From positions 1 to 27,620 of the IMG/VR virus record IMGVR_UViG_3300025132_000219: a DNA stretch of 27,620 nt; one strand, written 5' to 3'. Made by a program: the position numbers and the translations under genes. The DNA comes from a virus. Below the pieces are notes generated by a model, which was given only the letters and a program-made list of their open reading frames with translations, had not been told where the DNA came from and made no database searches. This document shows, in pieces, positions 8,216 to 27,618 of the stretch; the first letter of the stretch is position 1; every line of letters starts with the position of its first letter.

Positions 8216-11200
8216 CTAATTTGTAGCCGCACTTACACAAGCATCGTATTGTTGTTGGTGAGTTGGGAACAATGTTAAACCAGCATTAACAAATCCAGCT
8301 AACTGGGCACATGTGTAAACAAAACTTTCACCCCTTGCATCATATACACTTTGAGCCGCAGCTAATGCTTGACCCGTAAGGTTTGTTGCCTGATTCTGGG
8401 GTGCTGCCATATTACCTCCACCAGTACCTCCACCAGTATTGGTAACAGGACCGACATTTGTAGTAGTTGCACCTTGTGGCACAGTGACTGATGTTGATGA
8501 AGTTTCAGCAGGTTGGCCAAGACTAACTTCAGTTCCTAGTTTTACTAATTCTATAAGCGAAAAGAAATCGTATGGCCAATTATATGTATTTCTTGGAATT
8601 TCGAATGCGGAAGCTCCCGTGACGGGACCTCCACCGCCACCAGCAGCATTATTAGCTGAAGCCGCTGATGTCTGTTGTCCAAGTATTGTATCATAATAGC
8701 TTGTTTTAGCTCTTTGTTTTGCTTTGAATACCATCCAGCGTATTCTATGAGGCAATGGAGTTCCCGGCGACCCATTGTCTATAGTTATTGTCTGTCCATT
8801 TTGTGTTAGTACTGCACCACCACCGAGAAGTTCTTTTGCTAACAATTTATGAGATATGGTAACAGAAGATTTTTCTGCTTTAGTTGAAACCTTTGGATAC
8901 AAACCTTGCCATATATTCGCCAAATCGCGTTTATCCAATGTATGTGTGAAAGGAAATATATACATTGCAAAAGGTTCGATTTCTGGTGTTATAATAAAGT
9001 CCATACTCGGCGGTAAAACAAAATCTAACATATTAGCAACCATTTTAAAAACTGATTGTCCAACCAAATCTTGCTGTCCACTTAAAGCATTATTAATATC
9101 TTCTCTCGGTATGTGAAAATATTTTCTTTCACCCTGCTCTTCAATATAAGGAACCGCCACAACCGCTTCTTTAATTTCTTTACTATCAGCAATTTCTCCC
9201 AATCTAGATTCTGAATTAGCAAAACCTAAGTGCTCTTTTAGCGGTAAAACATTTGTTGTTGTTTTTCCCAATATATTGGTAATCCAATCTTCATCAAGGT
9301 CTGTAATTTGCATAAATACTCCCTTTGATGGGTTTGGCTCAAGGCGTCCGTATTGGTGCCACATGCCTCTTGGGGCCGAAGCTGATCCGTTGGTTGGTAA
9401 AGTAACTGAGCTTTTTGCTTGAAGTCTATTAAAGTTCAACATTGGGCACTCCCATTTGGATTGGATAACCCATCGAGCAGTCTCCTCAGTTAAATCTCCC
9501 GGTGTATCTCTTTTAAAATTAAACAAATTAACAGATGCACTTAATTGTAAGGCATTAACATTGTAAAGAAAATTTTCTCCATATGCAAAGCCGTTTGGTT
9601 TAGTATTGTCTGAGCGGCCAAATATATCTTCTCCTGTGCCTGTATCTTTGTGAACATATCTATAATATTTTACTTTTGATTGTTGTATAATTTGCGGAAT
9701 TGTGTATGCTGCACTGGCGGTCGGTGTAAAGGTTATATCAGCCCAAGCTTGCCCATGATAATATGGCGGTGTAAAAGGATAGTTTTCTCCATTTAAAGGT
9801 CTGTTTCCTCTTATAATACCAGCACCTAAAGCCATGGGTGTAACTCCAACACTATAAGATAATTCATTTACACTAATGCCCACAGGCGGCCCAAAAGCAG
9901 TTGGACGAGAATACATCGTAAAGTTTTCAGTATTTGCATCAGCATATTGAGGGGCCAGGAAAGGTTTAGTAGTATTACTACCTGATACTTGCGGAACAAC
10001 AGAATCTGATGATTTGAACATTTTAACACGCATAGAGTATTCTTTATTTGCTTCAAATAAAGGTATCTCGTTTGAAGGTTTAGAAACAAATGAAGTATAT
10101 TTTTTATTCTTTAGGAAAAAATCTGCTGTTTCAGCTAAAAAGTTATTAATCATTAAAGTGTAGTTTGTTTGTCCTGAGTTTATTGCTATTTTTGCAGAAG
10201 AAGAATGATTAGAAAAATTAGATGGCTCATTACAATGAGTTAAACCTAGTTGATCTGGGTTTAATAATGTCTCAAAACTTACTCTATTATCAAAAACCAC
10301 TCCATCTTTTTCATTATCGAGCATTTTGAATTTGCCAATGCCGCCATTAGACCCACTAAAGGCTAAAAAATAATTTGAATTAGTGTCTTTGAAAACTCTG
10401 GAATTTGATTTTCCTGATTCTTCTAAGGTTTTTGTTATAATAGGATAATCTACAGCAACACCTGATTTTATGGAATTGAACAAAATACCGGGTGCCATAA
10501 GAGGAGTTAGTACATTTTGCATCGCTACATGCGGTCTATCACTATTAGAACCTATCCAGCCATTGGAAAAAGAGCTAGAAAAACCTATTGAACTACTGTA
10601 GTCATTAAAGAATTGTTGTGCCATTTGAACTGTTCTTTGTTGAGGGTAAAAGCCCTCATATGGAGCAAGTTTTTTTATAATCTCACATGTCATTTTTAAT
10701 TCTACTGGTTCTCCCATTTCTTCATGATCATTGAGAACAACCCTAAAATATTTCATGAAATCAGAATTTGAATAAGTTTCATAAAAATTTTGTTCATTTG
10801 AACCAGTTCTATTTAATAAACCACCTGTTAATTCAAAAACATTTAAATTTTCTTCAATTACAGAATTATTTCTATAGAATTCAACATGATTTGATATCTT
10901 AAACTCAGGCACGATTCCATATTCTTTTGCAAATTGCCTTGGACCTTGAATATAATCTTCATAAGTATTGTAGAAAGGTTTTAATCCAGATTGAGATGCA
11001 GCTTCCCACTTTGCTTCTCCACTTGGTAAATCTCTATTTGTAAGATTTCCAAAAGAAGAGCCGTAACTAATACCTTCAATGGGCATTCCATTAACATTTC
11101 TGCAAGAATCTTTATGTGTTAAAAAATGTTTTCTATTATATATTGGTGCCGCTCTTATAATACTATTAAGTGCCGATGAACTTAGACTTGCCTCTCTGTG

Positions 11201-12277
11201 CATATTGTGGTCAGCAAAAGAATATTGATTTTGTAAGATACCTTGATCAGTGAAGCCACTGTAAGTTGTAGTGCTATGGTTAGCGACAAGTCCATAATAA
11301 AGAGACCCAGTGGTTGTCCTAACTCCGGTATCAAAGTTTCTTTGAGCATCCATAACCCATACACTTTGTGAAACATTCGAACCAAGACCATTTGAACTTG
11401 CAACATTTGCAGTTCTTTCGCTTCTTAAGTCTTTCCATGGAAATGTAAATGTTGTTCTTTGTCTTCTAAAATTCTTATATGTATAAAGCTCTTGAGGATA
11501 TACAATCTCTTTATATAACACCTTATCAAAAACATCTAATGGAGATTGGTTCGTAAATAAAACACCATTAAGATATCGACTCTTTAAAGCTTCGTAAGGA
11601 TTAGAAATAAATCTTCTAAATCGCTCTGTTTTTTGATTTAGTTCTTGGTTTGTAAATTGATTAATATTATTTGCCATGGGGGCAAATATAGCAATAGCTT
11701 TTAATTGAGTTACGGCTGGATTGTTAGTAAGGGGAACATTTATACCGCCATGTACAACAACAGGGCGAAATTTTGACATAACGGGGAGTTCGGAATATTG
11801 CTTTATTGAGCCATATCTAGCCATTTGAGTTATTGTTCTGTTATTTCTAGTAAAAGTAAACTGACCACCGGGTTCTTCTATAATTGTTATAACATTGTTT
11901 TGTTTTTGTTTTCGGGTCAACGGATTTTCACTGACTCTTGTCTGCTTCCACATTGGATACCCATAAGGACCATTTCTATGAAGCATCAGGGCGGGAAAAA
12001 ATGATGCTGTTGTTGGTAATTGATGAGAAAAACGAAAATTTTTAAATACAAAACCCGTATAAAGTGGCAAAACAGTTGAATTGGTCCCAAAAGCCAAATC
12101 AATACCAAAATGATTTAAATACACTTGTAAATTAACACGCCCAATATTAGTAAGTTTAGTTTCTCGACCTTCATAACTTAAAGCAGTGTACACAGCATTT
12201 TGATTTTCTGGGTCCCATCCAGTGGGTTCATATATAAATGTATTTAATCCAACATAATCTTGATAATATTTAGCCAT
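8216..12277 (-). CDS. Giant probable virion protein, unrecognised (1353 aa)
   Basis: I choose the ATG at 12277 (MAKYYQDYVGLNTF), one base after the upstream stop, with GGAG 6 bases before it (12284-12287). An in-frame start at 12346 would overlap the preceding gene by 68 bases and lacks support. No named domain is recognised. It is rich in Asn, Ser, Phe and Tyr across most of its length, which fits a large beta-rich structural protein. A well-formed segment near residues 1087-1130 reads LPPSMDFIITPEIEPFAMYIF, then DLANIWQGLYP. I recall similar text from metagenomic phage proteins, without a function. Glycine-rich linkers lie near 1213 (GGGGGP) and 1280 (GGGTGGGN), ahead of a small C-terminal segment with two cysteines. 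Because it directly follows the LamG protein, the two may form one assembly; this is inference. Confidence 0.8.
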   Translation of the reverse strand: MAKYYQDYVGLNTFIYEPTGWDPENQNAVYTALSYEGRETKLTNIGRVNLQVYLNHFGIDLAFGTNSTVLPLYTGFVFKNFRFSHQLPTTASFFPALMLHRNGPYGYPMWKQTRVSENPLTRKQKQNNVITIIEEPGGQFTFTRNNRTITQMARYGSIKQYSELPVMSKFRPVVVHGGINVPLTNNPAVTQLKAIAIFAPMANNINQFTNQELNQKTERFRRFISNPYEALKSRYLNGVLFTNQSPLDVFDKVLYKEIVYPQELYTYKNFRRQRTTFTFPWKDLRSERTANVASSNGLGSNVSQSVWVMDAQRNFDTGVRTTTGSLYYGLVANHSTTTYSGFTDQGILQNQYSFADHNMHREASLSSSALNSIIRAAPIYNRKHFLTHKDSCRNVNGMPIEGISYGSSFGNLTNRDLPSGEAKWEAASQSGLKPFYNTYEDYIQGPRQFAKEYGIVPEFKISNHVEFYRNNSVIEENLNVFELTGGLLNRTGSNEQNFYETYSNSDFMKYFRVVLNDHEEMGEPVELKMTCEIIKKLAPYEGFYPQQRTVQMAQQFFNDYSSSIGFSSSFSNGWIGSNSDRPHVAMQNVLTPLMAPGILFNSIKSGVAVDYPIITKTLEESGKSNSRVFKDTNSNYFLAFSGSNGGIGKFKMLDNEKDGVVFDNRVSFETLLNPDQLGLTHCNEPSNFSNHSSSAKIAINSGQTNYTLMINNFLAETADFFLKNKKYTSFVSKPSNEIPLFEANKEYSMRVKMFKSSDSVVPQVSGSNTTKPFLAPQYADANTENFTMYSRPTAFGPPVGISVNELSYSVGVTPMALGAGIIRGNRPLNGENYPFTPPYYHGQAWADITFTPTASAAYTIPQIIQQSKVKYYRYVHKDTGTGEDIFGRSDNTKPNGFAYGENFLYNVNALQLSASVNLFNFKRDTPGDLTEETARWVIQSKWECPMLNFNRLQAKSSVTLPTNGSASAPRGMWHQYGRLEPNPSKGVFMQITDLDEDWITNILGKTTTNVLPLKEHLGFANSESRLGEIADSKEIKEAVVAVPYIEEQGERKYFHIPREDINNALSGQQDLVGQSVFKMVANMLDFVLPPSMDFIITPEIEPFAMYIFPFTHTLDKRDLANIWQGLYPKVSTKAEKSSVTISHKLLAKELLGGGAVLTQNGQTITIDNGSPGTPLPHRIRWMVFKAKQRAKTSYYDTILGQQTSAASANNAAGGGGGPVTGASAFEIPRNTYNWPYDFFSLIELVKLGTEVSLGQPAETSSTSVTVPQGATTTNVGPVTNTGGGTGGGNMAAPQNQATNLTGQALAAAQSVYDARGESFVYTCAQLAGFVNAGLTLFPTHQQQYDACVSAATN

Positions 12278-12278
12278 T

Positions 12279-15200
12279 CTATACTCCGAAAATTTCTGAT
12301 GCTGATGGGAAATGTATTGCTGGCACTTCAAAGCCAGAATCACCATTAATAATTACTGATGAACTTAAAATTCCATCGCGTGGGGCATAACCATAAATTC
12401 TTTGCTTACCGCTTGTAACTGAATAATTATTTCCTAAAGAAGAAGTTATCCAGTTATATTGATAATCTGATTGGGGTATTAGAGAAGTTATATATCCATT
12501 GTCAAAACTTGATGAAAAAACAGGAGCCAATACTGTTGATAAACCTGTTGGCTGTTTTCTACCGTTTCTCTGTTCCTTGTGGAAATTTGGAATTGTTACA
12601 TAGCTAGCAGCAGTTATACTACCATGTTGTGAATCATAACCAAACTTACCCGTATGTCTTCTTAATAATGTTTGCAACCCCTCTCGTCTATTTATTTGAC
12701 TATTTGCACACATTGTACCGACTTCGCCGCTTCCTGATGAGCGAACTGTATAGTTTCTATAATTAATATGATTATATGCCGAATATTCTCTTGCATAAAC
12801 ATCAAGATATCCTAAAGAATTTATTTCAACACCACCGGGAGCAGAAAAACGAGAGGTAATAATTGTATTTGTGGCAGATCCTGTGATGATTGCATTGACA
12901 ATATCGTTTGCTTCAACAAAATTAACACCACCTGCTAAATTATTGAAATTAAAGAATGTCTGGAATGTTGGTGTTGATCCCGTTATAATTCCATTAAATT
13001 GTGTTCCAAATTGAGATGCAGTTAATGAAACAATGATTTGAGATTTTGTAACAGCAGGGCTCTTTAAAAATCTAATATTACCTTCAGCATTGATTGATGC
13101 AGTTACACTTTGTGTATCATATTTTACATCTAAAAATTTATTACCATCTACAAATTGATGCCCAATCACATTATAATCAGGATTAGTCAAACTACTAGTT
13201 AAAGGAAGATATCCTTGCAAGTTGCCTGTTGGTGCTACCTGTGTTGTTAAATAATCTACAAACACATGTCCACCATAAAGATCATTAACTTGAGCTTGGC
13301 TAAGAACAGTATTCCAAACACCAACATTGCACAAGCCGCCTTTGTGTTCAGCAGTGTTAGTTCTAAGATTACTTTGGTTATAAAGAAAATATTTTGTTGT
13401 CATCGGATTCATAGTGAAGCCAGTACCCATGGTGGTGTTACCGGCTCTAGTAGTGGAAACGTTTACACCATTTAAATACATTTTAACATCGTTGCTTGCT
13501 GTACCGGCATAGGATGCACCGGAATTATGGGTAATGACAAGATGAAACCATTGATCAAGATATGGTGTCATAACGGGGCCGACCCATTCAATATATTTTT
13601 TAGCACCAGAATCTACATAATTGTTGTAAAGTTTTAAATTTCTTGTACCTGAGTTATATTTTATTTGTCTTGAATGATCAAGACCTGCTGATGAGCTTTG
13701 ACTGTAAACAACACCAGTTGACATGTTTGATTGAGAAATATACAACCAACCAGCCCAAGTAAACGGATTGTTGTGAGCCCAAGTTGATCTATATGTTCCT
13801 GACATAAAAACACGATGATTGACACCGGAATTTGGAAAAGCAACCAAGAAAGTCGCTGGTTTTACTGTAGAGGAAACATAAGTAGTTGCCGTTGTCATAG
13901 ACGAACTTGTTTGTATGTGAGCTTGCAAATTGTCCATAAAATCAGAATCACTTGATCCAGTCAAAACAGTTGAATGACCAGCAGTAGGTGTTTCAATAAC
14001 ATAGCCTCTTTGGTTGCTTGATGTAATTTGAAGCTTTGCGCCTTTGGAAATATGATTAATTCCATAAACTGTGAACGAGCCACTTGCTTTTACACCAGTA
14101 ACGCCGGTGATATCTGGCTGTCTGTTGTTGTTATGAGCCCCAAAAATATTCCCTGCTGCACCTGTGGTTTGGGCAATTAAAGACATGGGGTGTGTAGTGA
14201 GAGGCAATGCCTGACCAACTTGTGTTGGAAGATAAAGTGATTGATCTGGGTTGTCTCTTAGAAAAATATTATTTTCTAGTTTACCGAAACTTTCAACAAT
14301 TTCATGATTTTCAGTAAAGTTCCCATGCGAAAAGAAAGGACTACTGCTTGTCACGGTTCTAATATTTTTAATATTAACTGGTCGCTTGGCTCTTTCTTCT
14401 CGATATAAAGTAGCAGCCTTTCTTGCAGGGTCAGGATAAGGACCACCATAATCGGCTCCAACAAAGCCAAACGCACCATCACCGCTGAACCATTCACTAA
14501 ACATAATTTGCCATGCTTCTTCGCGAGTGTATTCGTTATGAAGTCCATTAAGGGGTGCAAGTCCCGTGTCATCATCTCTTCTCGATGCATCATAAAAATT
14601 TAAATCAACATGTCTATGTTGGTGGCCGCCAACCCAGTTTTGAGTAAATGTGCCCTGCATTGGAACTTCATTTGTAAAATCTGTTGTGTCAGAGTGTATA
14701 TTTGTTATAACGGCTCCGCTGTTAAAGTGTTTTACAACAATGGAGTTATATCCTGTTTTAACGGCACCTGTGACAACATTGACAGGCATTTTTTCAGATC
14801 CAAAGGTATAAAAATATGAATCTACATCATCAACTGATTTTGAAGGATGTACAATTCCTTCTGCGAATTTACCTACAAAACCCTCTACATGTACTCGTTT
14901 CTTTAAATTTGGATCCAATACATCATCGCATCTTTTCTGTTTTATCACACCCTTTCCGGTTCCTTGGCCAACCAAAAAAGTATTTTGAGGTACACCACCG
15001 GAAACATTACCCGCTCGTTGTACAAAATTGTGTATTATATCTCTATCTTTATTACTTGGATAGTTAATTCCACCACCAATTGAGTGTTTTAAGAGTTTTT
15101 CTAATTTATAAGGCTTACTGAGAGTTCTAAAAATATATGTTGAACCCTCATATGTTGGTCCTCCAAATTTATATAACTTAGGAATGGGAACATCATCATG

Positions 15201-18200
15201 TTTGTTAATACTTTTCCTTAATGTTTCTCTATTGGCTATATCAGTTCTTTCTTTTCTATCTTTTTGCCACAAGCAATTATCATTATGATCACCAACAACC
15301 GGAGCGTGACCATGCTTCCAATCATAATTCATCTCAGCATGGCCTCTAATAGCAGCCTCTGGAATGTCTGGTTCTATTAGAAGAGGGAATTTATTTTGAT
15401 ATTTGTTTCTCTCTAAAATGTGGCTATCTATAACAGTGGAGATGCCACCAGAAAAACGAGAACTAATCGGAAATAAATCTTCAACAATTCGTGATATTGC
15501 TGTGTCTATCCATTTAAAATATTCTGAAAATCTATCAAAATCTAAATCACCCGTCACTCTTTCAAAAAACAACCTTCGAAGGTTATTTAAATCCTTATAT
15601 TCCATTCTGTATTTGTCTACAGGTTTGCCCATTAAATTGCTAAACTCCGCAACAGAGGAAAACATATTTAACATTTCTTCAGAAATTACCTGATACATGC
15701 TTTTTTCAAGAGTGTAAAAATTATCTGATACATCTTCATCTCTTATAAAAAATTTCTGTTCTTCTCCTTTAATAATAATATTTGGAGAAGTTACAGATAT
15801 TTCTGGTAGTTCTTTCTTTTGAGAATAAATGTTTTTATTTTTTACAAACGAAGTTTTGGAAGCTCCAAATTTATCTCCAACACCTTTATGTTCTCGACGA
15901 ACAATATTATCAATCCAACCATACTTTGTATCGGTTGAACCACTTGACATATCCTCAACAATATATTTTCCCGATGCATCGGATCCAGTTACTGTATCAA
16001 AGTTCCAATTGATCGCTATCAAGTCACTACTTGGAATATCTGTCGATAAATTAAATGGAAATGCTGTGGCAAGACGATTACTTTCTTTTAATCCATAGTT
16101 TGAAGGATCAAGGTTATGTTGTCTTATAATTGTTTTGTCTAAATAATCCTCATACAGCCTAAAAGCACCCATCTGTATATCAGAATTTTGAATCAGTGCT
16201 CCTGTGAAGTTAGTATAATGGGCACCAACGAAGAAACGTTTTGCATTAGAAAGGTAACTTGAACCACTACTATAATTTAAACTAGCAGTTAGAGTAAATT
16301 CATTTGCGATAGTATCAAATGCATGTGTAACACCATAAAATTCTAATGCATAAGTTGGATTTGATGAAGAGACAACATTTCCAACCAGACCATACTTATC
16401 TGGTCTTACACTAACAGCCAAATTCCATCTTTGATTATCATAAATCTCAGGTATAAGACTTGTTGATAAATTTATTGTACCATCTTGATTTTTTAAAACG
16501 AATTTTGCATTTTTAGAATCTATTTTATCTCGAACCAAGTAAACTTGCAAATTTGCTATATTAGTAGAGAACCATGTATAATCGGCTGCACTAGAGGAGT
16601 TTGCTTGATGAAAGCCATATATCGAAGATGATAAAAATGGTGTTGAAAAATACCCTTCTTCATGAGCTTCTATTTTATATGGAATAACAATATCTGCTTC
16701 CGCTGTAAAAGCCGAGTATTTTTCTAACTTTTGAATACCAGAACCAGATATAAAACTTTGCGAGTTGTTGGCTGATGATGTTTGATATACCGTTGAAGCA
16801 AAATAATTTTGATCATTGAAATTAATATATTTCGTATTTAATGTGGTTTGTTTTGTTTTGTCAGAAAAGTAGTGAGTACCACCGTCTGTATATACATTTA
16901 ATTTTACAAGCTCATCATCAAAGCCAAAGCATCTTAGCAAATTTCTTACAGACCTTTCTGTTCCTTTGGATTTATAAATAAATTCTAAATTATTATAGAT
17001 ATTTGTATAAATTAAGTTCTTTACTTCTTGTATATTTTTTTCATAAAGAGTCTTATTTGCATCTCTGTCTCCATATTTTTCTAATATGGTAGAATCCACA
17101 AACAAATTATTAACAGTAATGCCTTTTTCTGATAATAATCTATCGGCAAATGGAAGTGCTTTTTTATTTGTTTCAACATACCTTTTGTTTTTTAATTTTG
17201 GCAGTTCATTAATTTGTGCATGTAAAGTATCAAAATAATTTGACATAATTTGAAACAAATATTTAACATTGCTGTTACTCTCTTCATCTTCTTCTCTAAT
17301 CCATTGTGGCAAAGTGTTCAGCAACATGCTACCGTTTTCTTCATCCCAATCAGAACCAGAATTTTGCATTTCAGTCAGCAAACTAATAACATTAGGATGT
17401 GTACTGTAGATAATTGGATCAGCGACTTCAGAGGAAACCAGTTCAGATTCAGTAAAAGCAGAATTGGTTGAACGTGCACCAGAAGAATACCCAGTCCAAG
17501 AACCGTTAGCAATTCGACCAGAATAATCCAGAACAACAGAATCTGTTGCTGATGTCCCGACTACACCTTCGTTAAATTTATAATAAACACCGAGCTTAAC
17601 ATTAGCATCGTCTGAGTTGGTTCCTCCACCGATGCCGCGATACCAATTATTATAAATCTCTTCTGAGGTTCTCCGAGTTTTCCAAAAACGGAAATCATCA
17701 AGAGAAGCAGAAAGCTTACCAGCAGCAGTTAAAGTGGTTCCATGAAATACATTACCAGATGGAGCAGTTTGAAGTGCACCTATATATCCATTTACAAGTC
17801 CATTAAAATCTCCAAAACCTTTTGTTCCAAGTGTTTTCTTCGAATTCAAATTACCGTTTTTATAAAATCTTGAAGTAATACCATTAGAAGCAGAAACCAA
17901 AGATAAGGCATAATGTGACCAACTAGAAAGTGAGGCAACCGTTACATCTGTTGTGCTAACAACTTGCTCAAATACCCCCGTAGAGCCCGATTGGAGGGTA
18001 ACTCTGAATACTTGATTGGCACCGGCACCAGCGGTTGGTGACCCTGTAATATTGAGAGTCAAACGTCCATAGTCTGCTGAAGAAGAAAGTTTGCCATTCC
18101 ATAAGTCAAGAATTACTTCTTTACCAGTTTTAGAGTGATTAAAACCTGCCTTCTTAAGCCAAAATTCAATTGTTACACCTTCAGATCCATTAATATCATA

Positions 18201-18719
18201 AGTGATTGTTCTGTTTTTTGCAGAATCATAAATGACTGATTTATCAAATGTTTCTCGTAATGGCTTACCTTCCATCCCGACAGAAGCAGTATGCATCCCA
18301 CCGCGAGAATAAATATATTCATAATCTGTGGAGGAGTTTGGTAAACCATACCCTTGTGTTATAGAAGCAGCGGTTCCCCACCCTCCATGTGAAAAATTTA
18401 TATAACCAGTTGATTTTGGATATTTATTATCAAAAACCCACTTATCAAGATAAGAGGAAGATAATTCAAAAAGTATTTTCTCTCTTTCGGAACCATCATA
18501 TGGATAATCTCCATATATTCTCTCTATTGTTTGAGTATAATATTCATAAGCAGAGCCATATTTTGCAAAATTAGAAGCAGTTGCAAAATCAACACTTGGC
18601 TGAAATGTGTCTAATTTTTCTTTTTTAGTTTTTATAAACTCAAATGATTCAACATCGGAGCTACCACTTGTTGCATTTTCAAAAGTTGTTATTTTTGTAA
18701 ATAAATCTTTAATACTCAT
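12279..18719 (-). CDS. Giant baseplate-type protein with three LamG/ConA-like regions (2146 aa)
   Basis: The longest complete gene in the window; its ATG overlaps the upstream stop by 11 bases. Three regions look like concanavalin/laminin-G lectin folds. Residues ~150-362 have VTIEFWLKK and end SASLDDFRFWKTRRTSEEI. Residues ~655-875 have NQRWNLAVSV and end MGAFRLYEDYLDKTIIRQHN. Residues ~1635-1815 have PFTWAGWLYISQS, WFHLVITHNSG, VKMYLNGVNVS and GVWNTVLSQAQVNDLYGG. Between the first two, near 575-600, a helical KSKGTERSVRNLLRCFGF resembles the KGT motif of P2 gpI / gp7-type wedge proteins. A helix-rich part lies at ~1005-1115. The C-terminus contains IPQSDYQYNWITSSL, which I recall from metagenomic LamG phage proteins. 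Inference: a peripheral wedge protein with built-in glycan-binding modules. LamG folds in phages may also be purely structural. Confidence 0.8.
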   Translation of the reverse strand: MSIKDLFTKITTFENATSGSSDVESFEFIKTKKEKLDTFQPSVDFATASNFAKYGSAYEYYTQTIERIYGDYPYDGSEREKILFELSSSYLDKWVFDNKYPKSTGYINFSHGGWGTAASITQGYGLPNSSTDYEYIYSRGGMHTASVGMEGKPLRETFDKSVIYDSAKNRTITYDINGSEGVTIEFWLKKAGFNHSKTGKEVILDLWNGKLSSSADYGRLTLNITGSPTAGAGANQVFRVTLQSGSTGVFEQVVSTTDVTVASLSSWSHYALSLVSASNGITSRFYKNGNLNSKKTLGTKGFGDFNGLVNGYIGALQTAPSGNVFHGTTLTAAGKLSASLDDFRFWKTRRTSEEIYNNWYRGIGGGTNSDDANVKLGVYYKFNEGVVGTSATDSVVLDYSGRIANGSWTGYSSGARSTNSAFTESELVSSEVADPIIYSTHPNVISLLTEMQNSGSDWDEENGSMLLNTLPQWIREEDEESNSNVKYLFQIMSNYFDTLHAQINELPKLKNKRYVETNKKALPFADRLLSEKGITVNNLFVDSTILEKYGDRDANKTLYEKNIQEVKNLIYTNIYNNLEFIYKSKGTERSVRNLLRCFGFDDELVKLNVYTDGGTHYFSDKTKQTTLNTKYINFNDQNYFASTVYQTSSANNSQSFISGSGIQKLEKYSAFTAEADIVIPYKIEAHEEGYFSTPFLSSSIYGFHQANSSSAADYTWFSTNIANLQVYLVRDKIDSKNAKFVLKNQDGTINLSTSLIPEIYDNQRWNLAVSVRPDKYGLVGNVVSSSNPTYALEFYGVTHAFDTIANEFTLTASLNYSSGSSYLSNAKRFFVGAHYTNFTGALIQNSDIQMGAFRLYEDYLDKTIIRQHNLDPSNYGLKESNRLATAFPFNLSTDIPSSDLIAINWNFDTVTGSDASGKYIVEDMSSGSTDTKYGWIDNIVRREHKGVGDKFGASKTSFVKNKNIYSQKKELPEISVTSPNIIIKGEEQKFFIRDEDVSDNFYTLEKSMYQVISEEMLNMFSSVAEFSNLMGKPVDKYRMEYKDLNNLRRLFFERVTGDLDFDRFSEYFKWIDTAISRIVEDLFPISSRFSGGISTVIDSHILERNKYQNKFPLLIEPDIPEAAIRGHAEMNYDWKHGHAPVVGDHNDNCLWQKDRKERTDIANRETLRKSINKHDDVPIPKLYKFGGPTYEGSTYIFRTLSKPYKLEKLLKHSIGGGINYPSNKDRDIIHNFVQRAGNVSGGVPQNTFLVGQGTGKGVIKQKRCDDVLDPNLKKRVHVEGFVGKFAEGIVHPSKSVDDVDSYFYTFGSEKMPVNVVTGAVKTGYNSIVVKHFNSGAVITNIHSDTTDFTNEVPMQGTFTQNWVGGHQHRHVDLNFYDASRRDDDTGLAPLNGLHNEYTREEAWQIMFSEWFSGDGAFGFVGADYGGPYPDPARKAATLYREERAKRPVNIKNIRTVTSSSPFFSHGNFTENHEIVESFGKLENNIFLRDNPDQSLYLPTQVGQALPLTTHPMSLIAQTTGAAGNIFGAHNNNRQPDITGVTGVKASGSFTVYGINHISKGAKLQITSSNQRGYVIETPTAGHSTVLTGSSDSDFMDNLQAHIQTSSSMTTATTYVSSTVKPATFLVAFPNSGVNHRVFMSGTYRSTWAHNNPFTWAGWLYISQSNMSTGVVYSQSSSAGLDHSRQIKYNSGTRNLKLYNNYVDSGAKKYIEWVGPVMTPYLDQWFHLVITHNSGASYAGTASNDVKMYLNGVNVSTTRAGNTTMGTGFTMNPMTTKYFLYNQSNLRTNTAEHKGGLCNVGVWNTVLSQAQVNDLYGGHVFVDYLTTQVAPTGNLQGYLPLTSSLTNPDYNVIGHQFVDGNKFLDVKYDTQSVTASINAEGNIRFLKSPAVTKSQIIVSLTASQFGTQFNGIITGSTPTFQTFFNFNNLAGGVNFVEANDIVNAIITGSATNTIITSRFSAPGGVEINSLGYLDVYAREYSAYNHINYRNYTVRSSGSGEVGTMCANSQINRREGLQTLLRRHTGKFGYDSQHGSITAASYVTIPNFHKEQRNGRKQPTGLSTVLAPVFSSSFDNGYITSLIPQSDYQYNWITSSLGNNYSVTSGKQRIYGYAPRDGILSSSVIINGDSGFEVPAIHFPSASEIFGV

Positions 18720-20265
18720 CTTTTTCTACTCTAAACTTGAATAAATACGGCTGTTCTCTGTATGAAGAAACAGAGCCCTCATAAAAACTATATTGAAATC
18801 CGTAAGTGTAACCAGCTTCAAGCATAGATAAATCAAGATCAAAATAGTTGCCAGATACATCATAAGACAACATAGAGTAGTTATTATCACTAGAGCCAGT
18901 ACCATAAGGGATAACAACTTTTTGATCCACTACTCTTGTAACTTGGTAAGAAGCACTTTCAATAATTAAAGTTTGTGGAGTAGCTTGTGCTTTGGAATAA
19001 ATGTTTGGACTCCAATTTTTATTCCTTACATAAATCCTAAAACGTTCGGTTTGATTACTGGAATAAGAATCTTTTAGATTAGGCATTGAAACGACATATT
19101 TACCATTTGGATTAATATTTGATGCTTGCAGGGTTATTGGTTTTATTGTACCTGTATGGAATTGAATGGATGCAGCGGCAGCATTAGTGATTGTTGTTGA
19201 TCCACTAAACCAAACATCGTAAATTGTTTCTAATGTTGATGATCCCGTGTAAGCGAATGAGCACTTATAGATACCAGTTGAAACATGGCTACCTGTGACT
19301 ACAAACAAATTGCCCGCTACAACATTAGTGCCATCAACTGATAGTTTGAGTGCGGCGTCATCTGGTGTAGTATCATCAGATGAGCCGGAAAAAATACTAA
19401 CATAAATTTTATCAGTACCAATACTTGGGATATTAGCTAACCTACCTCGAACATAATTATATAAAAATATTGTATTTAAATTATCCACCGCAGGGGCAAG
19501 TGAAGAACTATAATAAAAATTACCTCGTTGATCTTTTAAATTTGATTCCCATCTTGCTTCAAGATTTGGTCTATCGAAAAAATATTCACTACCTCTAGCA
19601 AAAAATTTCTTTGTGTAATAAGAGACAAGTGATCCATTAAGGTTGGAAGAGCTTGAAGCCTCATATGATGAGGATAATTTAATTAAAACACCGTTCCTAT
19701 CTTTGTTTCCTAGACTACCACCAGTCATCCATTGCTCTACAAGCGGTGTAATATCAACAGATAAGTCTTCAGTTCCAAGAGAAAATGTTTGTTCAAAAGA
19801 AGAACTTGCATCTGTGTAAATGTCTCCACCAGCAGAAGACCAAGAAGTGTTACCTTGTCTTTTAATCCAATTTGAACCAATCTTATCGTATGTTAAATCA
19901 GTGTAATTATCTAAATCTAAGCCATATCCCTCTTCCCAAGCTCCATTAACAGCATTTACAGTTAGTTTAAAGTCTCTTGGTAGTGTTGTTGAATGCGGTG
20001 CATTATATAAATTTAGAAAAAATTTAACACTTCCAGAAGCTGGGATAGAGCCCGCTGTTCTATCGGACTGTATATCAGAAATTGGAAAATTAATTAATAT
20101 TCTAGACAACTCTGTTGAAGTGGTAGATTGCTGTCCATAGATTGAAAATGTTTCCAATATATCAGCAGCGCCAGCATTAGAGCCAGTTCCTCTTGTCGAT
20201 AAGTCTTCTTTAAATGCATTTGTGATTGAATTATCTGCATTGGCTATATATCTTTTAATAGGCAT
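18709..20265 (-). CDS. Tail/baseplate protein with DNRLRE-like beta domain (518 aa)
   Basis: Starts at the ATG at 20265, overlapping the gp6 stop as TAATG, with AAGGAA about 10 bases upstream. The N-terminal ~240 residues resemble a DNRLRE/CBM96-type jelly-roll domain: MPIKRYIANADNSITNAF, SRILINFPISDI, NAVNGAWEEGYGLD, DLSVDITPLVEQWMTGG, NGVLIKLSSSYEA, and the closing FFARGSEYFFDRPNLEARW. The family is known from cell-surface and fibre-like proteins and is often linked to polysaccharide binding. The remainder (250-518) is Ser/Thr-rich and beta-like, with a final domain containing NYFDLDLSMLEAGYTYGFQY. Its position between gp6 and the giant LamG protein suggests a baseplate-periphery component. 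The domain match is by eye, so the fold is moderately sure and the ligand unknown. Confidence 0.8.
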   Translation of the reverse strand: MPIKRYIANADNSITNAFKEDLSTRGTGSNAGAADILETFSIYGQQSTTSTELSRILINFPISDIQSDRTAGSIPASGSVKFFLNLYNAPHSTTLPRDFKLTVNAVNGAWEEGYGLDLDNYTDLTYDKIGSNWIKRQGNTSWSSAGGDIYTDASSSFEQTFSLGTEDLSVDITPLVEQWMTGGSLGNKDRNGVLIKLSSSYEASSSSNLNGSLVSYYTKKFFARGSEYFFDRPNLEARWESNLKDQRGNFYYSSSLAPAVDNLNTIFLYNYVRGRLANIPSIGTDKIYVSIFSGSSDDTTPDDAALKLSVDGTNVVAGNLFVVTGSHVSTGIYKCSFAYTGSSTLETIYDVWFSGSTTITNAAAASIQFHTGTIKPITLQASNINPNGKYVVSMPNLKDSYSSNQTERFRIYVRNKNWSPNIYSKAQATPQTLIIESASYQVTRVVDQKVVIPYGTGSSDNNYSMLSYDVSGNYFDLDLSMLEAGYTYGFQYSFYEGSVSSYREQPYLFKFRVEKDEY

Positions 20266-22061
20266 TATTTAACAGTTCCTTGAATATCTAAGTCTGGGAA
20301 TTTCAATTCAGCTATACAATCTTGTGGGATTTTTATAAATGTACCATCTTTAGATATAGCATCTTCAAAGACTAAATTAGCTTTGGAATAATTTCCACCC
20401 GACAGGTTCTCTAAAACAACATTCTTAGTGTCAATAACACCTTGTATATTATTTAATAATTGATATATTCTTGATATATATATCGGCTCACCAATATAAG
20501 AAACTTCAGAAAAATGATCTTTTATTTTTGTTATACATTCTGCTAAAACTGAGTCATGATCATATCTTTTGTCAACATGAACGGTAAACGCAACTGAGAA
20601 ATTTACTATTTTTGCATCAAATATATCAATCACATCATTTAACATTTTATAAAAACTTAACCAATTTCTTATATTATTTTTTATAACATTATTACAAATG
20701 GCTAATTTATTACTTGAATTTTCTGCTATAACATATAATGCTAGCCTTCTGTTCGTAGCGGAGGGATCGTTTATAATATTGGCTCTTTTGATGGCACCAA
20801 ATTTATTTGGCATATTGTATATTAATGATTCATAGTCTTGTTTAGTTACTGCTCTATTTTGAGTTGCATAGTTGGAAATAGCCCTCCGCTTCAACTCTTC
20901 TAAAGAAATTCTTGAATTTACTGAATTAATTGGTAATAAATTTGTCACTTCTAAAGAATTTTCAATAATATTTCTCTGTTCTGTGGGTATATTTTGTCCA
21001 ACTTCAAATACAAGTTCTCTGTTTGAAATGTTTATTATACTATTTGCCGCCACACTACTTCCCATAGAACTATTTGATCTATAATTTATTGTCAAAGTGG
21101 TGTTGTAAGGAGAAATTCCAAGTTTATTTGTAGATAACAGTTTTGTTGGATCAAAAGAATTATTAGAAATTGTGTTTTTTCCATGAAGGTTTAGTGCAAT
21201 TTTAGAAGGTTCAACAAGACCAGTAGTATCTTCCTCTTCAGAGCCAAATCCAAATTGAATATAGGTACCAGTGTCATCTCTTTCTACCACAAACCTTCTT
21301 GTTGCCACAAAAGGTTTCAAAATTGATCTGACACCATCGGTAATAGCATCTTTGTTTGTTGTTTCGACAAAAATAACCTCTTGTGAGAGATTATCAACCT
21401 CATAATATTTATTGCCCTGTGAATCTACCACACTATGAATTTCAGTTACTGAAGGGTCGCCAACTTTTATTCTTTTAAATTTTTCAAAAACACTTCCTAA
21501 AACTATCTGAGACGAAAATAATAATCCAGATTGTATTTGTCCAGTCGCTCTTACAGCAAAGTAAGTTGTAGCTCCAGTTGTTTCATTAAAACGTGCTGCT
21601 ACAAATTCACTTTGTGCATTGTTGAAAACTATATCCTCGGTCAATACAAAATTAATACCCTGGGCTGTCGCAAAAGATGAGCCTCTTTTTAATCTTGGCA
21701 AAAAATCTAAATCAGGGGCGGTTCCCTCTGCATTTGCAGGGCACAATATATATGCAGTTATAATGCCAAAAGATGAGGGTGTACCAGCATACTTATACCC
21801 TAATGATCTTGCATGTTTTCTAATGTTGTCAAACTCTATTGCCGTGTCTAAAAAACTTTCGTTTACACTATAATCTACATAATATGATAATACATCCCCA
21901 ACATAAGAAACTGTATCTAAAACCAACGAACCAAATGAAGCATCTGTAAAATCCTTATAAGAATCAGGGTAGTATCTTCTTGCATAGTCTACTAAGTCTT
22001 GTTTTATAGACTCAAAATCTCTATTTGTATAATCTATATTGATATTTTTATTTTTTGGCAT
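20265..22061 (-). CDS. gp6: T4 gp6 / baseplate J-like wedge protein (598 aa)
   Basis: Baseplate wedge subunit that forms the ring-like core around the tail hub in contractile phages. The N-terminus is typical: INIDYTNRDFESIKQDLVDYA, then DASFGSLVLDTVSYVGDVLSYYVDYSVNESFLDTA and a helical IRKHARSLGYK. The central part has the expected beta-rich J-like core (residues ~90-330). It is followed by ELKRRAISNYATQNRAVTKQDYESLI near 395-420, the conserved stretch of this family. The C-terminus (VAFTVHVDKRYDHDSVL, then GVIDTKNVVLEN) also fits. Length is near that of T4 gp6 (660). I chose the ATG at 22061, with GGAG 10 bases upstream, over a GTG at 22085 that would place this site inside the gene. It follows gp25, the classic order in T4-like and related baseplates. 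Confidence 0.92.
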   Translation of the reverse strand: MPKNKNINIDYTNRDFESIKQDLVDYARRYYPDSYKDFTDASFGSLVLDTVSYVGDVLSYYVDYSVNESFLDTAIEFDNIRKHARSLGYKYAGTPSSFGIITAYILCPANAEGTAPDLDFLPRLKRGSSFATAQGINFVLTEDIVFNNAQSEFVAARFNETTGATTYFAVRATGQIQSGLLFSSQIVLGSVFEKFKRIKVGDPSVTEIHSVVDSQGNKYYEVDNLSQEVIFVETTNKDAITDGVRSILKPFVATRRFVVERDDTGTYIQFGFGSEEEDTTGLVEPSKIALNLHGKNTISNNSFDPTKLLSTNKLGISPYNTTLTINYRSNSSMGSSVAANSIINISNRELVFEVGQNIPTEQRNIIENSLEVTNLLPINSVNSRISLEELKRRAISNYATQNRAVTKQDYESLIYNMPNKFGAIKRANIINDPSATNRRLALYVIAENSSNKLAICNNVIKNNIRNWLSFYKMLNDVIDIFDAKIVNFSVAFTVHVDKRYDHDSVLAECITKIKDHFSEVSYIGEPIYISRIYQLLNNIQGVIDTKNVVLENLSGGNYSKANLVFEDAISKDGTFIKIPQDCIAELKFPDLDIQGTVK

Positions 22062-22102
22062 TAAAAGGAAACTCCGACAAATCACAGTAAATAGAATTTC
22101 AA

Positions 22103-22480
22103 TTAAATATTTGATATATCTATTTCAATGAAATCAACTATTTCAGCAAATTCTATTTCATATTTTAGTTTAATATGGATTGATTGTTCACCAGTTGGCT
22201 CTATAACTAATTCTAAAATATCTATATAAGGAACATAAAAAGAAAGTTGTTGATTTATTCTATCTTGCATAGATTGTAATAAATCAATTGTAAAATTTTC
22301 AAACAATGCTCTTTTTATCCCAACACCAAAATCTGGTATCATTATTCGTTCGCCGGGATTAGTAAGAATGACATTCTTTACATTAAATCTTACAGCGGTC
22401 TTTATATCAGCTAAGTCATAACCAGCATTTGTTTCTGTAATATCTAAAGGAAACTGTATTCCCGGTGTTTCTTTTGGCAT
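22103..22480 (-). CDS. gp25: GPW/gp25-like baseplate wedge protein (125 aa)
   Basis: Small baseplate wedge protein of the gp25/GPW family, which links sheath and wedge in contractile tails. The family core is clear: an initial segment with IQFPLDIT, then AVRFNVKNVILTNPGERIMIPDFGVGIKRALFEN with the hallmark NPGER and PDFG, then a helix (DLLQSMQDRINQQLSFYVPYIDI) and closing strands. Length matches the family's usual 110-135 residues. AGAGGA at 22489-22494 lies 8 bases before the ATG, so this start is secure. The gene precedes gp6 by 41 bases. Together they are the strongest evidence that this is a contractile tail module, either a phage or, less likely given the giant neighbours, a phage-derived injection system. 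Confidence 0.95.
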   Translation of the reverse strand: MPKETPGIQFPLDITETNAGYDLADIKTAVRFNVKNVILTNPGERIMIPDFGVGIKRALFENFTIDLLQSMQDRINQQLSFYVPYIDILELVIEPTGEQSIHIKLKYEIEFAEIVDFIEIDISNI

Positions 22481-22524: not shown

Positions 22525-25500
22525 CTAATATTCTCCACTAAAACCAGAATCTCCACTACCGCCGGGTGATTGATCTTCTGGCAAGTCTGGATCGCCTGTG
22601 GGTTCTTCTGGCGGTGGCACTTCTGCTGTTCCCTTTGGTATTGTTGGATCAGGGTCAGGATCAAGATCAGGTTTATCGTCAGCTTTCGCAATTTGTAACC
22701 CATCGCCATCATATGTAAAATCAAACATTCCACCAAACTGATTTTCACATGGGGAACCATCTACATTAGTTTGAAGATTCTTTCTTATTCTTTTCTGTGT
22801 TAGCCAAGGAATTGCACTGTCTAATGAAAGTGCATTAAATGTTTTTGCCAATAGACTTTGTGTTAGCAAAGATAATTCATCAACATCATCCTCTTCATCA
22901 GGTGGATCAAAATCTTTTCTATTATAATTTGATACAAAGAGTTTTCTACAAACATGTTTTGAGTCATTGAATGTTTTTGAACGCTCATCTGAATCAGGAG
23001 GTGTTATTTCGCCATCAAGTAAATTAAAGACACCTCCTAATTCTGGCTCTCTTCTTTCATTTTCGCCAAGTCCCAAAGATGTTAAAAAGTTGACATCAGA
23101 GTATATTGAAAATATAGAACCAACTTTTTTCAAATTAAACACTCTATCAAATATCATCTTAAATTCATCTGTTGAAACTAGCCCATCAATATAGCACTTC
23201 AAATCTTGATTAAAATCTTCGTTAGCTTCTTTGAAAGAAACTAGTTTTTCATCAAGAATATCTTGTTCATATGATACGAGAGGGATGGTATATTTACCCC
23301 AAGTTTGATATCTTTGGTTTTGTTCTAAGGTATCGTTTTCATTAAAAAGCCAAGTTTTTTCTTTCAAAGAATTTGTTTTAATTTCTTTAATCTGTTCTGT
23401 ATCAAAAGTTTGTGAAATATCAAAATTACCAGCAGGTATATAACACAATCTAACACCAAATTTTATACCAGTAGATCCAACATAGCCCTTATCTGCAAAA
23501 GATAATTGAGCGTTTCCAAATAAATCTGAAATATTAGTATCTTCTGTTATTTCCTGTGTTTTTAAAAATTCAATAAACTCTGTGATATTTTGAACCCCAG
23601 AAGGAAGTTCCTTGGAGGCAGCATTTGATGGATTTATTTCACTTTCTCTTTTGTTAAAATCTAATGTGCCTGATTCTCTGTAGTCCATTAAAGCCATCTC
23701 TTCATCGCTTAAAGGTGCACCCTTTGGAATGATTCTTAAATATTTTTCTAAATAAAATCCACCATATCCTTTAATATCGATCCAATCAAAATAACTAAGA
23801 TCTGCTGATTCTAATGGATGAAAACCATCAGATTTAGCACAATGGTTAATTGTGCCATAATATTCTGGTGATTCTATTTCTGTGGGGATTAATCCCGAAG
23901 CTCCACCAATTGGAACCTCAACATCATACAGCCCTGCTCTAATATTTTTTCCATGAAGTATATTTGAACCTCCAATAAAATATTTATTAATATCATATAT
24001 TAATGGCCTTTGAGAAGCATCGGATGCTATTTTATCAGAAAAATATTTTATTTCCTCGCGGATTAGCCTTTTCAAAAATACCTTACAGTTTTCTTCATAT
24101 TCAGCAATATATGCAATTTTTGCCATGAAATTCATTCTATTTTGTGTAAAAAACGGACTCAAAAATGGTAGCTCTGCACCGGGATATATTATTCTTTGAG
24201 TCGCTTTGTCTTCTTCATATCCAGTTATTGGAATATCAGAAAAATCTTCCATCCAATCTCTATTATTTTTTCTCATTAAAATACCACCTGCAAACATATA
24301 TGCCATGTCTCTTCCGACTTGCTCGGTGAATGAATTTATGAGGTCAAAAATATTTGCTGGTTTGTTTTTTCCAACTTCAAGAAAAACATTTATATCTAAT
24401 TCAGCAAGATCATCTCTCTTTGGTTTTGTATAAGATATTTGAGCCTCATTTATTGCCATTGACATTTCGTCGGCTTCAATATCTGATTCTAATTCTCCAT
24501 TAATTATTTTTCTATTATAAGTTTGAGCACATTGTTCTAAGAATAAAAGCCAATAAGCATACCCCTCATAAGTTCCAAAAATATTAAATGCAAAGAAAGA
24601 AGTTTGTTCACTTAAGCCTTCTTGCATTTTTTCGGAAATATATTCCATTAACAATTCATCAAAATTCTTGTCATTAAAAGCTAAATTACCATGAATTGGG
24701 TATGAATTCACCAAAAACTCTGTTATATAGATCCTTATTGTTGCTGAAACACATGCTTCCAAAGTAGCTAATGTCGCTGGTGAGCCTATTTTTGCAAAAG
24801 GAACTTCAACCACACACTCTGGTCCTTCTTCTAATCTTTCATCAAATGGAATCTTTTGTTGGGTTACGGCTATCTTATCTTCTAATTGTTTTAAGCCTAA
24901 GAAATTAGAAGTACCCCTGTCACATCCATCAAAATTTGGAACCAAAGTTTTGGAAAATCCTATCCATCCAACATTTGTTGCTGGTTCAATGTAAATATTC
25001 GGTAGAGTATAGGTGCCGCCATGGACCTTTGGGTCTAAAAATTTAACTCTTGGATTGTCCGTGAAACTTCTACCTAACACTTTTGCTTCATCAGTGTATG
25101 TATATTCAGTTGCACCCGGTGTGGGATCTACATATGTTAGATCGTCAAGTGTGATTGTGTTATTTATACCACCATGCTTAAAAGATTCAGCCATTAACCC
25201 ATTTTGGTCACTTACGAGCGTTTCTTTAAATTGTTGAAACATAAATTGATTTATCATTTTTGTTATTACATGGCACCCTTCTATATCCAAATTAATATTG
25301 CCTATTTTGTCTTTCAAAATCTTTTCTATGTAATTTTTTAAAACATAGTTCCTAAAATTATTACTTCTATCGTTCACAGAAAATGATAGTTCGTCTTGAG
25401 AGGGAGCATATTGGTCAATAAAAAGTTTTTCTTCTTCTGTCATATAAGGTTCAACAATAAAATTGTTTTTTGCTGAAAGGGCAGTTTCGCCCTCCGCAGT

Positions 25501-27618
25501 AGATATAATTGTTTGATACATAAAATTAGAATTATTATATCTGTTTAAATCTTCTCCAAATGTTGGATAACTTTCCACTATTGAAATTCTAGACCTAAAT
25601 TGATCACTTTCTTCCAAATTATTATTATATTCTAATCTAAAAGATGCTCGCTCATCGTATGAAGGAACGTTAGAAATTATTTGATCTCTCAAATATAGGC
25701 CCACAGTTTCTGGAAATGGAGCCTCACCGTCAAACACACCGAGCCAAACAAGTGCTTTCAAAAACCAATTATTTCTAAGTGAAAAATGAAAACCATAATT
25801 ATAACCAACAACATCAGATGTTATCCTTAATAATACACCAACAGGGTCAGTAAATTCAAATGAGTTTTGTTGTATAGTATCGTCAAGATATGCTTTTTGT
25901 AGACCAGCAAACATCCCTTCAATAATTTCTGCTTTTAATTCTTTTACTTCTTCAGTGTCTTTTAATAATGATGGATCTAAGACACAATCAGGGTCTGGTG
26001 GTGCAAATAGTTTATCAATCTCTTTCTGTAAGGCTCCTTCTGGTCCTTCAACTAATATTTGAGCAATTTCTGTTAAATCATCAGCTAAATTTCTTTTTTG
26101 TTTGTTAACAAATTCTCTAGCGATATCAGGATCTCCAATTTGTTGTTCAAAAACATCCGTCAACTGGTTGTAATATTGTTCGGCTTCCTCGTTTGATAGA
26201 CAAATACTAGGGTTTAAAGGAAAAAGTTGTGCTGGTGTTTGTGATAATTCTTCGGCATATTCTCTCTGTTCAGCAGTCAATTGATTACCGGCAGCAACTA
26301 AAACACTCTCTAGCGACTGTGGATTTCCAAGAGATTCCCATTCGGGGTGGATGACTGATAATGTTCTGGATACATTATTTAAAAATGATGTATCTCCATT
26401 ACCAGTCATAGCAGATAAATATTCTTGCTCGGAACCCAATGTGGCCATTGTTTCTAATACATCTGATGCTGTGCTTATTGCACCGGGTGCAGATGCACCG
26501 CTCAAACTAAATAAGTTTTCCTTTGCTTTTTCTTGATCTTCTTCACTTAATTGATCACCGCAAACAATATCATCAAGCAACTCAGGAAAAGACCTTGGAA
26601 ACCTCCAATTGTTATTACTAGCACTAGCCAAATCCTTTATTCCTTGTCCGACAAATGCTAAACTTTTACACAAAGCTGCTTCTAATGTTTGAAGAACCTT
26701 GTAGATTAGTGCGGCAACAACTCTCTTACATGTATTTGCTAAAGCATCAACAAAACTTTCACCAACTAATACGAACCAATCCCAAAGTTCCGGCAGTTTT
26801 TTCAATTTAGGAAGTATAAACGGCTTTGTATCGCCATCGGCGCAGCCACCAAGAGTAAATGTTCCTAAAAACTCATCTAGACGAGGAGTGAAAAAGGTAT
26901 AACCGGGGCAATCAAAACCAGCAAATATTTGATTAAAAACTTTAGCTCCCGGTAGTGCATTTAAACCTTGAGAAATTTCCTCTATTGTTGCATTTTCTAA
27001 AATAACATCTACATATGCTGCCATCACTTCTTTTTGAAAAGAACCAACGGCCCTTCCATAAGTTCCTTGTTTTATTTTATCAGGATCAGCACCTGCGATG
27101 AAATTCATCTTTTGCTTTTCTGCTTCAATAACTTTTTCTTGCTCTTCGGGGGGCAAATCTGAGAATCCTACCGTAAGCGCATTCCTCTCTATCCCTGCAT
27201 CTATCTCATTTAAGAGTTTTTCCTTTTGGGCCAATAGTGTCTTTTGTTCTTCTATTAGATCAAGTCTGCGTTTTTCCATTTGTTGATAATAAAATTCCTG
27301 TGAGTCGGGCTTTATACCTTGTTCGGCAGCGAGGGCTGCATCATATTTTGTTAATAATACTTGAAGCTGTTGTTGTAATATTTTTAGTTTTTCATTTTCC
27401 TCATTATATTTTTGCCATGCGGCTGTTTGCATATCTGAAGCAACACTAAGGCCGCTGACGGGAGCGGTGGGATTTTCTGCTAATGATTGGAAAAAATTTA
27501 TTGCATCTTGTAATTCGTCATATGCTGCATTTTTATCTGCAATTTGTAAATCAACAGAAGCTTGTTTAGTATTTACATTAGATAAAGCCCGTGCTGTAGC
27601 TTCCTGCAATTGAACCAT
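22525..27618 (-). CDS. Giant structural protein preceding gp25, unrecognised, 5' end uncertain (1697+ aa)
   Basis: The frame is open from the stop at 22525-22527 to within two bases of the right edge. The first visible Met is at 27618, so the true start is probably outside the window. The visible N-terminal ~150 residues are predicted coiled coil: heptad-like Leu/Gln/Lys text such as YNEENEKLKILQQQLQVLLT and IEEQKTLLAQKEKLLNEID. A hydrophobic amphipathic segment lies near 276-325, with cysteines scattered before and after it. A Pro/Asp-rich linker (PDLDPDPDPTIPKG) and a Gly/Ser tail ending FSGEY close the protein. No known family is recognised; it is not a gp53 or gp5 by length. Its place before gp25 suggests a baseplate hub, wedge or tail-tip component. 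A tape-measure-like role is possible, but the mostly globular middle argues against it. Confidence 0.75.
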   Translation of the reverse strand: MVQLQEATARALSNVNTKQASVDLQIADKNAAYDELQDAINFFQSLAENPTAPVSGLSVASDMQTAAWQKYNEENEKLKILQQQLQVLLTKYDAALAAEQGIKPDSQEFYYQQMEKRRLDLIEEQKTLLAQKEKLLNEIDAGIERNALTVGFSDLPPEEQEKVIEAEKQKMNFIAGADPDKIKQGTYGRAVGSFQKEVMAAYVDVILENATIEEISQGLNALPGAKVFNQIFAGFDCPGYTFFTPRLDEFLGTFTLGGCADGDTKPFILPKLKKLPELWDWFVLVGESFVDALANTCKRVVAALIYKVLQTLEAALCKSLAFVGQGIKDLASASNNNWRFPRSFPELLDDIVCGDQLSEEDQEKAKENLFSLSGASAPGAISTASDVLETMATLGSEQEYLSAMTGNGDTSFLNNVSRTLSVIHPEWESLGNPQSLESVLVAAGNQLTAEQREYAEELSQTPAQLFPLNPSICLSNEEAEQYYNQLTDVFEQQIGDPDIAREFVNKQKRNLADDLTEIAQILVEGPEGALQKEIDKLFAPPDPDCVLDPSLLKDTEEVKELKAEIIEGMFAGLQKAYLDDTIQQNSFEFTDPVGVLLRITSDVVGYNYGFHFSLRNNWFLKALVWLGVFDGEAPFPETVGLYLRDQIISNVPSYDERASFRLEYNNNLEESDQFRSRISIVESYPTFGEDLNRYNNSNFMYQTIISTAEGETALSAKNNFIVEPYMTEEEKLFIDQYAPSQDELSFSVNDRSNNFRNYVLKNYIEKILKDKIGNINLDIEGCHVITKMINQFMFQQFKETLVSDQNGLMAESFKHGGINNTITLDDLTYVDPTPGATEYTYTDEAKVLGRSFTDNPRVKFLDPKVHGGTYTLPNIYIEPATNVGWIGFSKTLVPNFDGCDRGTSNFLGLKQLEDKIAVTQQKIPFDERLEEGPECVVEVPFAKIGSPATLATLEACVSATIRIYITEFLVNSYPIHGNLAFNDKNFDELLMEYISEKMQEGLSEQTSFFAFNIFGTYEGYAYWLLFLEQCAQTYNRKIINGELESDIEADEMSMAINEAQISYTKPKRDDLAELDINVFLEVGKNKPANIFDLINSFTEQVGRDMAYMFAGGILMRKNNRDWMEDFSDIPITGYEEDKATQRIIYPGAELPFLSPFFTQNRMNFMAKIAYIAEYEENCKVFLKRLIREEIKYFSDKIASDASQRPLIYDINKYFIGGSNILHGKNIRAGLYDVEVPIGGASGLIPTEIESPEYYGTINHCAKSDGFHPLESADLSYFDWIDIKGYGGFYLEKYLRIIPKGAPLSDEEMALMDYRESGTLDFNKRESEINPSNAASKELPSGVQNITEFIEFLKTQEITEDTNISDLFGNAQLSFADKGYVGSTGIKFGVRLCYIPAGNFDISQTFDTEQIKEIKTNSLKEKTWLFNENDTLEQNQRYQTWGKYTIPLVSYEQDILDEKLVSFKEANEDFNQDLKCYIDGLVSTDEFKMIFDRVFNLKKVGSIFSIYSDVNFLTSLGLGENERREPELGGVFNLLDGEITPPDSDERSKTFNDSKHVCRKLFVSNYNRKDFDPPDEEDDVDELSLLTQSLLAKTFNALSLDSAIPWLTQKRIRKNLQTNVDGSPCENQFGGMFDFTYDGDGLQIAKADDKPDLDPDPDPTIPKGTAEVPPPEEPTGDPDLPEDQSPGGSGDSGFSGEY

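Follow-up and report, generated by a model that had tools for sequence, protein, structure and literature searches.

The baseplate wedge component represented by P2 gpI, T4 gp7 and XM1 gp17 is encoded after the genes for gp25 and gp6/gpJ, and LamG domains are undescribed in it. In XM1 the gp7 counterpart, gp17, attaches the host-binding tail spikes by means of a loop and of its C-terminal end (PMC10457771). Carbohydrate-binding module (CBM) folds occur in the baseplate wedge protein Gp119 of Bacillus phage Vp4, for which binding to bacterial cells has been demonstrated (PMC11406892), and the wedge protein Alg11 of AlgoCIS bears two protruding CBM-type domains with a proposed role in attachment; its authors regard the gp7-like portion as a hotspot for re-engineering (PMC8894135). 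Siphophages have 'evolved Dit' proteins (PMC7291167, PMC10688798), in which carbohydrate-binding modules have been added to the structural distal tail protein. Here we analyse a 27,620-base stretch of DNA from an uncultured virus (IMG/VR record IMGVR_UViG_3300025132_000219, positions 1 to 27,620; termed the window) that encodes a protein of 2146 residues, the giant, in which an earlier note had proposed a helical gpI/gp7-like segment and three LamG-type regions. That note also held that classical baseplates keep wedge proteins and lectins on separate chains, which in view of Vp4 and Alg11 is no longer a general rule.

The giant is probably the wedge component, of gpI/gp7 type, in the baseplate of a contractile tail, with LamG sandwiches in loops of its core, two of them (LamG1 and LamG2) permanent and the third (LamG3) serving as a swappable adhesion module. 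Its open reading frame (ORF) is real, running from an ATG start to a TAG stop with no internal stops; it lies on the minus strand, which the earlier note had left unstated, as do all large genes of the window. A profile search for the giant finds 155 relatives, and those at 69-72% identity keep the protein at full length.

Searches with the whole protein against Pfam, PHROG and PDB sequences gave nothing useful, and slices were required. Slice-wise searches together with structure prediction yielded three LamG/ConA-type sandwich folds, and these are confirmed as real. The three regions marked in that note (residues ~150-362, 655-875 and 1635-1815) all hold, each proving wider than had been thought (Table 1). 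LamG1 aligns with the pentraxin 3flp over 209 residues (VIA Z 19.4, 3.1 A), and its AlphaFold2 (AF2) model has a predicted local distance difference test score (pLDDT) of ~85-90; the window copy scores 21.7-22.4 bits (E-value 2.4e-4) with Laminin_G_3, under the curated cut-off, and copies in relatives score above it. LamG3 is over that cut-off in the window itself (42.7 bits, E-value 8.4e-11), with a VIA Z of 13.7. LamG2 is identified by fold and profile only and has no match in Pfam: beta-sandwich strands are modelled with pLDDT ~90, chains with two LNS domains align over residues 103-951 in VIA, and the LamG2 profile matches the LamG1 profile at the closing strands with a score of 29.1 (shuffled maximum 17.6).

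Three homologues of 1265-1404 residues, reached via a gp6 search, are without LamG1: immuto35A_161 (QQO92079.1, 1265 residues) of Flavobacterium phage vB_FspM_immuto, WWT39511.1 of Microcystis phage Mel-JY01 and a 1404-residue ORF of LR756508. LamG2-type sequence is present in Mel-JY01 and LR756508 and absent from immuto. All three have a KGT module and a second helical core part homologous to those of the giant, and their genes likewise lie downstream of gp25 and gp6, in the matching position. Related LamG-free contigs number at least 572; a tblastn search of INPHARED with the giant as query finds no relatives. The gpI-like module of the giant aligns with the immuto family at an hhalign probability of 99.6, and residues 995-1110 align with immuto 664-753 at 98.0. 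When the LamG1 columns are removed, the alignment to the immuto family extends through the N-terminal helices and scores 181.4, the module by itself reaching 160.7 (the maximum with N-terminal columns shuffled is 167.4). Removal of both LamG1 and LamG2 from the profile gives one continuous alignment of 371 columns (score 260.8, E-value 8e-33), and therefore both lectins occupy loops of a single core.

This comparison is unrooted and does not tell gain of the lectins from loss. A family that was LamG-rich from the start, with LamG1 and LamG2 lost from immuto-type homologues, would concern history only and would be compatible with our functional reading. Such a history suits an unrooted comparison and change counts that are blind to gain versus loss, but we consider it quite unlikely: simple gpI proteins such as P2 gpI (176 residues) have no such domains, and among the cultured or complete homologues LamG1 is absent from all three and LamG2 from one. 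Given these absences and the simple gpI proteins, stepwise gain is the simpler account.

The link to gpI comes from the module that follows LamG1. The earlier note had placed its helical gpI/gp7-like segment at residues ~575-600; the KGT motif lies inside the KSKGTERSVRNLLRCFGF given there, and the full module is much longer, spanning residues 436-619. Its layout of helical pair, LPxxA helix, KGT, helix and strand agrees with AF2 secondary structure. We collected 77 module sequences from the LamG-bearing and LamG-free families. Of these, 23 match TIGR02242, the NCBIfam model for a phage tail protein domain, and four the next family, all weakly; the best TIGR02242 E-value among members is 0.0024, short of the curated cut-off, and the window's own segment is unlisted. 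PF09684 (Tail_P2_I) reaches 11.1 bits on the KGT stretch of the window against a cut-off of 20.6, and is also found weakly on that of LR756508. The KGT-module profile aligns end to end and colinearly with a gpI/TIGR02242 set of five sequences, scoring 29.5 where shuffled profiles have a mean of 9.9 and a maximum of 15.8, and the window-family segment scores 20.8 on the KGT stretch against another, smaller gpI set (shuffled maximum 16.6). P2 gpI shares with the giant a gpI-like module with KGT, the sequence match being weak. The second helical part was also compared with the C-terminal helix-PAR motif of gpI, and the match is not significant (score 13.8, shuffled maximum 17.1).

Gene order points the same way. 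Among the 68 loci of relatives with enough upstream DNA, 67 have the order gp25, gp6, a 518-residue gene and the giant, which resembles the place of the P2, T4 and XM1 wedge genes. The gp6-like protein of the window also matches the annotated wedge protein of immuto by tblastn. A tail sheath gene was matched in eight of 15 contigs of relatives checked, and these are therefore contractile-tailed phages. The gpI/gp7 identity is accordingly supported by module, position and company and not by a formal family match: the link proposed in the earlier note is supported by the gpI-like module and by the position close after gp25 and gp6, and sequence similarity to T4 gp7 itself is undetected.

Several results weigh against this reading. 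Every gpI-like score falls under the curated family cut-offs; we therefore use the term gpI-like and do not file the giant as a member of PF09684 or TIGR02242. (PF09684 likewise misses Mu gp48, an annotated wedge subunit.) Profile comparison with T4 gp7 (27 sequences) and Mu gp48 gave no significant alignment; orthology with gp7 may hold all the same, and on sequence comparison the giant is best called gpI/gp7-like. The KGT-module profile finds only chance-level matches among PDB sequences. The PDB matches listed by Foldseek and VIA are taken up by lectin chains, with no wedge protein among them, so that the helical core is without a match to a solved wedge protein, a result that excludes nothing. 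The model of the C-terminal half (mean pLDDT 51) is poor except at LamG3, which affects residues ~1110-1610 and 1940-2146. Finally, a fold by itself shows no ligand, so that sugar binding by these LamG domains is putative. Some of these points would fit a giant that is a peripheral baseplate or tail-fibre-network adhesin encoded after gp6, not a partner of gp6, with KGT convergent or a short shared motif: T4 gp7 is not matched, the gpI-like scores stay below the curated cut-offs, and the 518-residue gene separates gp6 from the giant. We think this very unlikely, since TIGR02242 scores far over noise, the alignment spans the whole module beyond KGT, and the LamG-free homologues occupy the corresponding position.

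The three lectin domains differ in how they are kept. Mean pairwise identity is 0.436 for LamG1 and 0.342 for LamG2, with 0.431 for the KGT module. Four relatives, 69-72% identical to the giant, are without residues ~1608-1936, and in other relatives the LamG at this site is only ~21% identical to LamG3 of the window, its flanks being 42-64% identical. Further LamG domains of relatives lie near residues 300, 720, 1141-1172 and 2053-2075 and at the C-terminal end. On a quick, unrooted tree made from core columns, each of four cassette sites changed at least three or four times; these counts do not distinguish gain from loss, and they are approximate because Pfam overlooks divergent LamG copies. 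The sequence comparisons thus support a division into fixed family parts, LamG1 and LamG2, and a swappable cassette, LamG3. As to whether such domains are host-binding modules or reused scaffolding, the alternatives that the earlier note left side by side, probably both apply, depending on the domain. Were all of them scaffolding, an enlarged wedge arm would use the lectin fold as a rigid spacer, and recognition of the host would fall to separate downstream fibres. LamG1, fixed in position and conserved like the core, suits this account, as do the separate LamG ORFs of several relatives, which could be receptor binders; such ORFs occur in some relatives in which Pfam finds no LamG on the wedge protein (Table 1), and LamG-bearing relatives may have them too. 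That all of the domains are scaffolding is nevertheless unlikely, in our judgement: LamG3 is missing from sister phages, its site is hypervariable, and cassettes are gained or lost at several sites, unlike a load-bearing part.

Under the reading that we favour, a gpI/gp7-type wedge component with permanent and swappable lectins, the three helical stretches of the core (residues ~25-102, 436-619 and 995-1110) would be packed against a pair of gp6 subunits, the arrangement of other contractile systems. In the peripheral wedge arm, LamG1 and LamG2 would most likely be rigid elements that may also make general contact with surface glycans, and LamG3 and the cassettes at other sites in relatives would be outward-facing, swappable adhesion modules. 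A host surface glycan bound by these modules could act directly on the wedge, with no separate fibre chain between, and could help to trigger sheath contraction. Phages of this group may therefore carry host-sensing modules on a structural wedge part itself. A stronger form, to which we give only tentative credence, has the wedge itself as the adhesin: the fixed LamG domains would shape the arm, cassettes at six sites would help to set host range, the chain would often be fused to the next tail protein, and recognition and triggering would lie on one molecule, with no separate short fibre.

Since sugar-binding-type modules were already known in wedge proteins from Vp4 Gp119 and AlgoCIS Alg11, the novelty of the giant is lowered; new here are a gpI-like protein with LamG domains at several sites, its homologues free of LamG, and the division of the lectin domains into fixed and swappable ones. 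Like the 'evolved Dit' proteins, the giant joins such modules to a structural tail protein. Siphophages with 'evolved Dit' proteins, unlike the phage of the window, have non-contractile tails, and the structural protein is another one. Gp119 of Vp4 is another of the wedge proteins (BW3, similar to A511 gp105) and has CBM folds, unlike the LamG folds in the gpI-like giant, and Alg11 belongs to an extracellular injection system, not a phage, its CBMs caging the spike (PMC8894135). Set beside its LamG-free counterparts, the giant is a clear case of a wedge-type protein that has lectin folds in its loops, and one in which fixed and swappable lectin domains can be told apart within a single chain. 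The proposal also gives a route, open to test, through which glycan binding could act directly on the baseplate. The family is large and uncharacterised, the 155 relatives being joined by the LamG-free contigs, and its annotated cultured members, immuto35A_161 and WWT39511.1, are both entered as "hypothetical protein".

The giant is often fused with the gene that follows it. The two form a single open frame in 40 relatives and are separate in 21 loci on the window's side of the tree, a difference that requires one change; in one relative (L007, 10001-24959) the fused open frame is at least 4986 residues. In the window the junction reads TAG-A-ATG. A frameshift joining the two genes was considered and dropped, given this junction and the non-overlapping frames in three further loci (L021, L034 and L051), as was a broken gene as the origin of the split, which is kept in one clade with its single change on the tree. 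In four relatives (L007, L028, L032 and L082) LamG-like and repeated ~80-residue segments lie between the fused genes, in frames of ~5000 residues.

Table 1. Features of the giant, its neighbours in the window and separate LamG ORFs of relatives (window positions unless a record is named)
Feature	Position	Strand	Remark
Giant, putative gpI/gp7-like wedge protein with LamG modules	12279..18719	-	2146 residues; open frame and full-length conservation in relatives
N-terminal core helices, residues 25-102	18414..18647	-	AF2 helices 26-99; homologous helices in immuto family
LamG1, residues 103-435	17415..18413	-	fixed lectin-type sandwich between core helices; fold match
gpI-like module, residues 436-619	16863..17414	-	helical pair, LPFADRLL helix, KGT, helix, strand
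KGT motif, residues 585-587	16959..16967	-	nearly invariant across 77 sequences of both families
LamG2, residues ~620-970	15810..16862	-	divergent lectin-type sandwich inserted after KGT module
Second helical part of core, residues 995-1110	15390..15737	-	joins core once LamG2 is cut out
Hypervariable cassette site, residues 1608-1936	12912..13898	-	short stretch instead in L002, L003, L004, L006
LamG3, residues ~1628-1870	13110..13838	-	swappable cassette
Next gene	8216..12277	-	probable ATG start (12277) one base past the giant's stop
518-residue gene between gp6 and giant	18709..20265	-	neighbour kept in 67/68 loci
gp6-like baseplate wedge protein	20265..22085	-	phrog_219 baseplate wedge subunit, E-value 6.5e-21
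gp25-like baseplate wedge protein	22103..22480	-	Pfam GPW_gp25, E-value 8.8e-11
Separate LamG ORFs, relatives without Pfam LamG in wedge protein	immuto MW353176 139848-142372; L150 contig 9757-16752; Mel-JY01 180455-180970

The 518-residue gene may be a second carbohydrate-type protein within the wedge operon; it is a candidate because its positional counterpart in Mel-JY01 matches CBM96 with an E-value of 5.5e-5, slightly short of the cut-off. The sheath ORFs of relatives (in G005, G007, G008, G010, G012, G013, G014 and G015) are about 940-1170 residues, long for a sheath. A giant homologue of 1559 residues lies at 9445-14677 of L083 (CP070664.1, a chromosome assigned to a WOR-3 metagenome-assembled genome), with only a piece of the 518-residue gene upstream and without gp25 or gp6 in that stretch; it may be what is left of a provirus, or a contaminant of the bin. 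Upstream of gp25, the window holds an open frame of 1697 residues (22525-27618) that has no match in Pfam and no significant match in PHROG, and whose relatives are ~46-49% identical.

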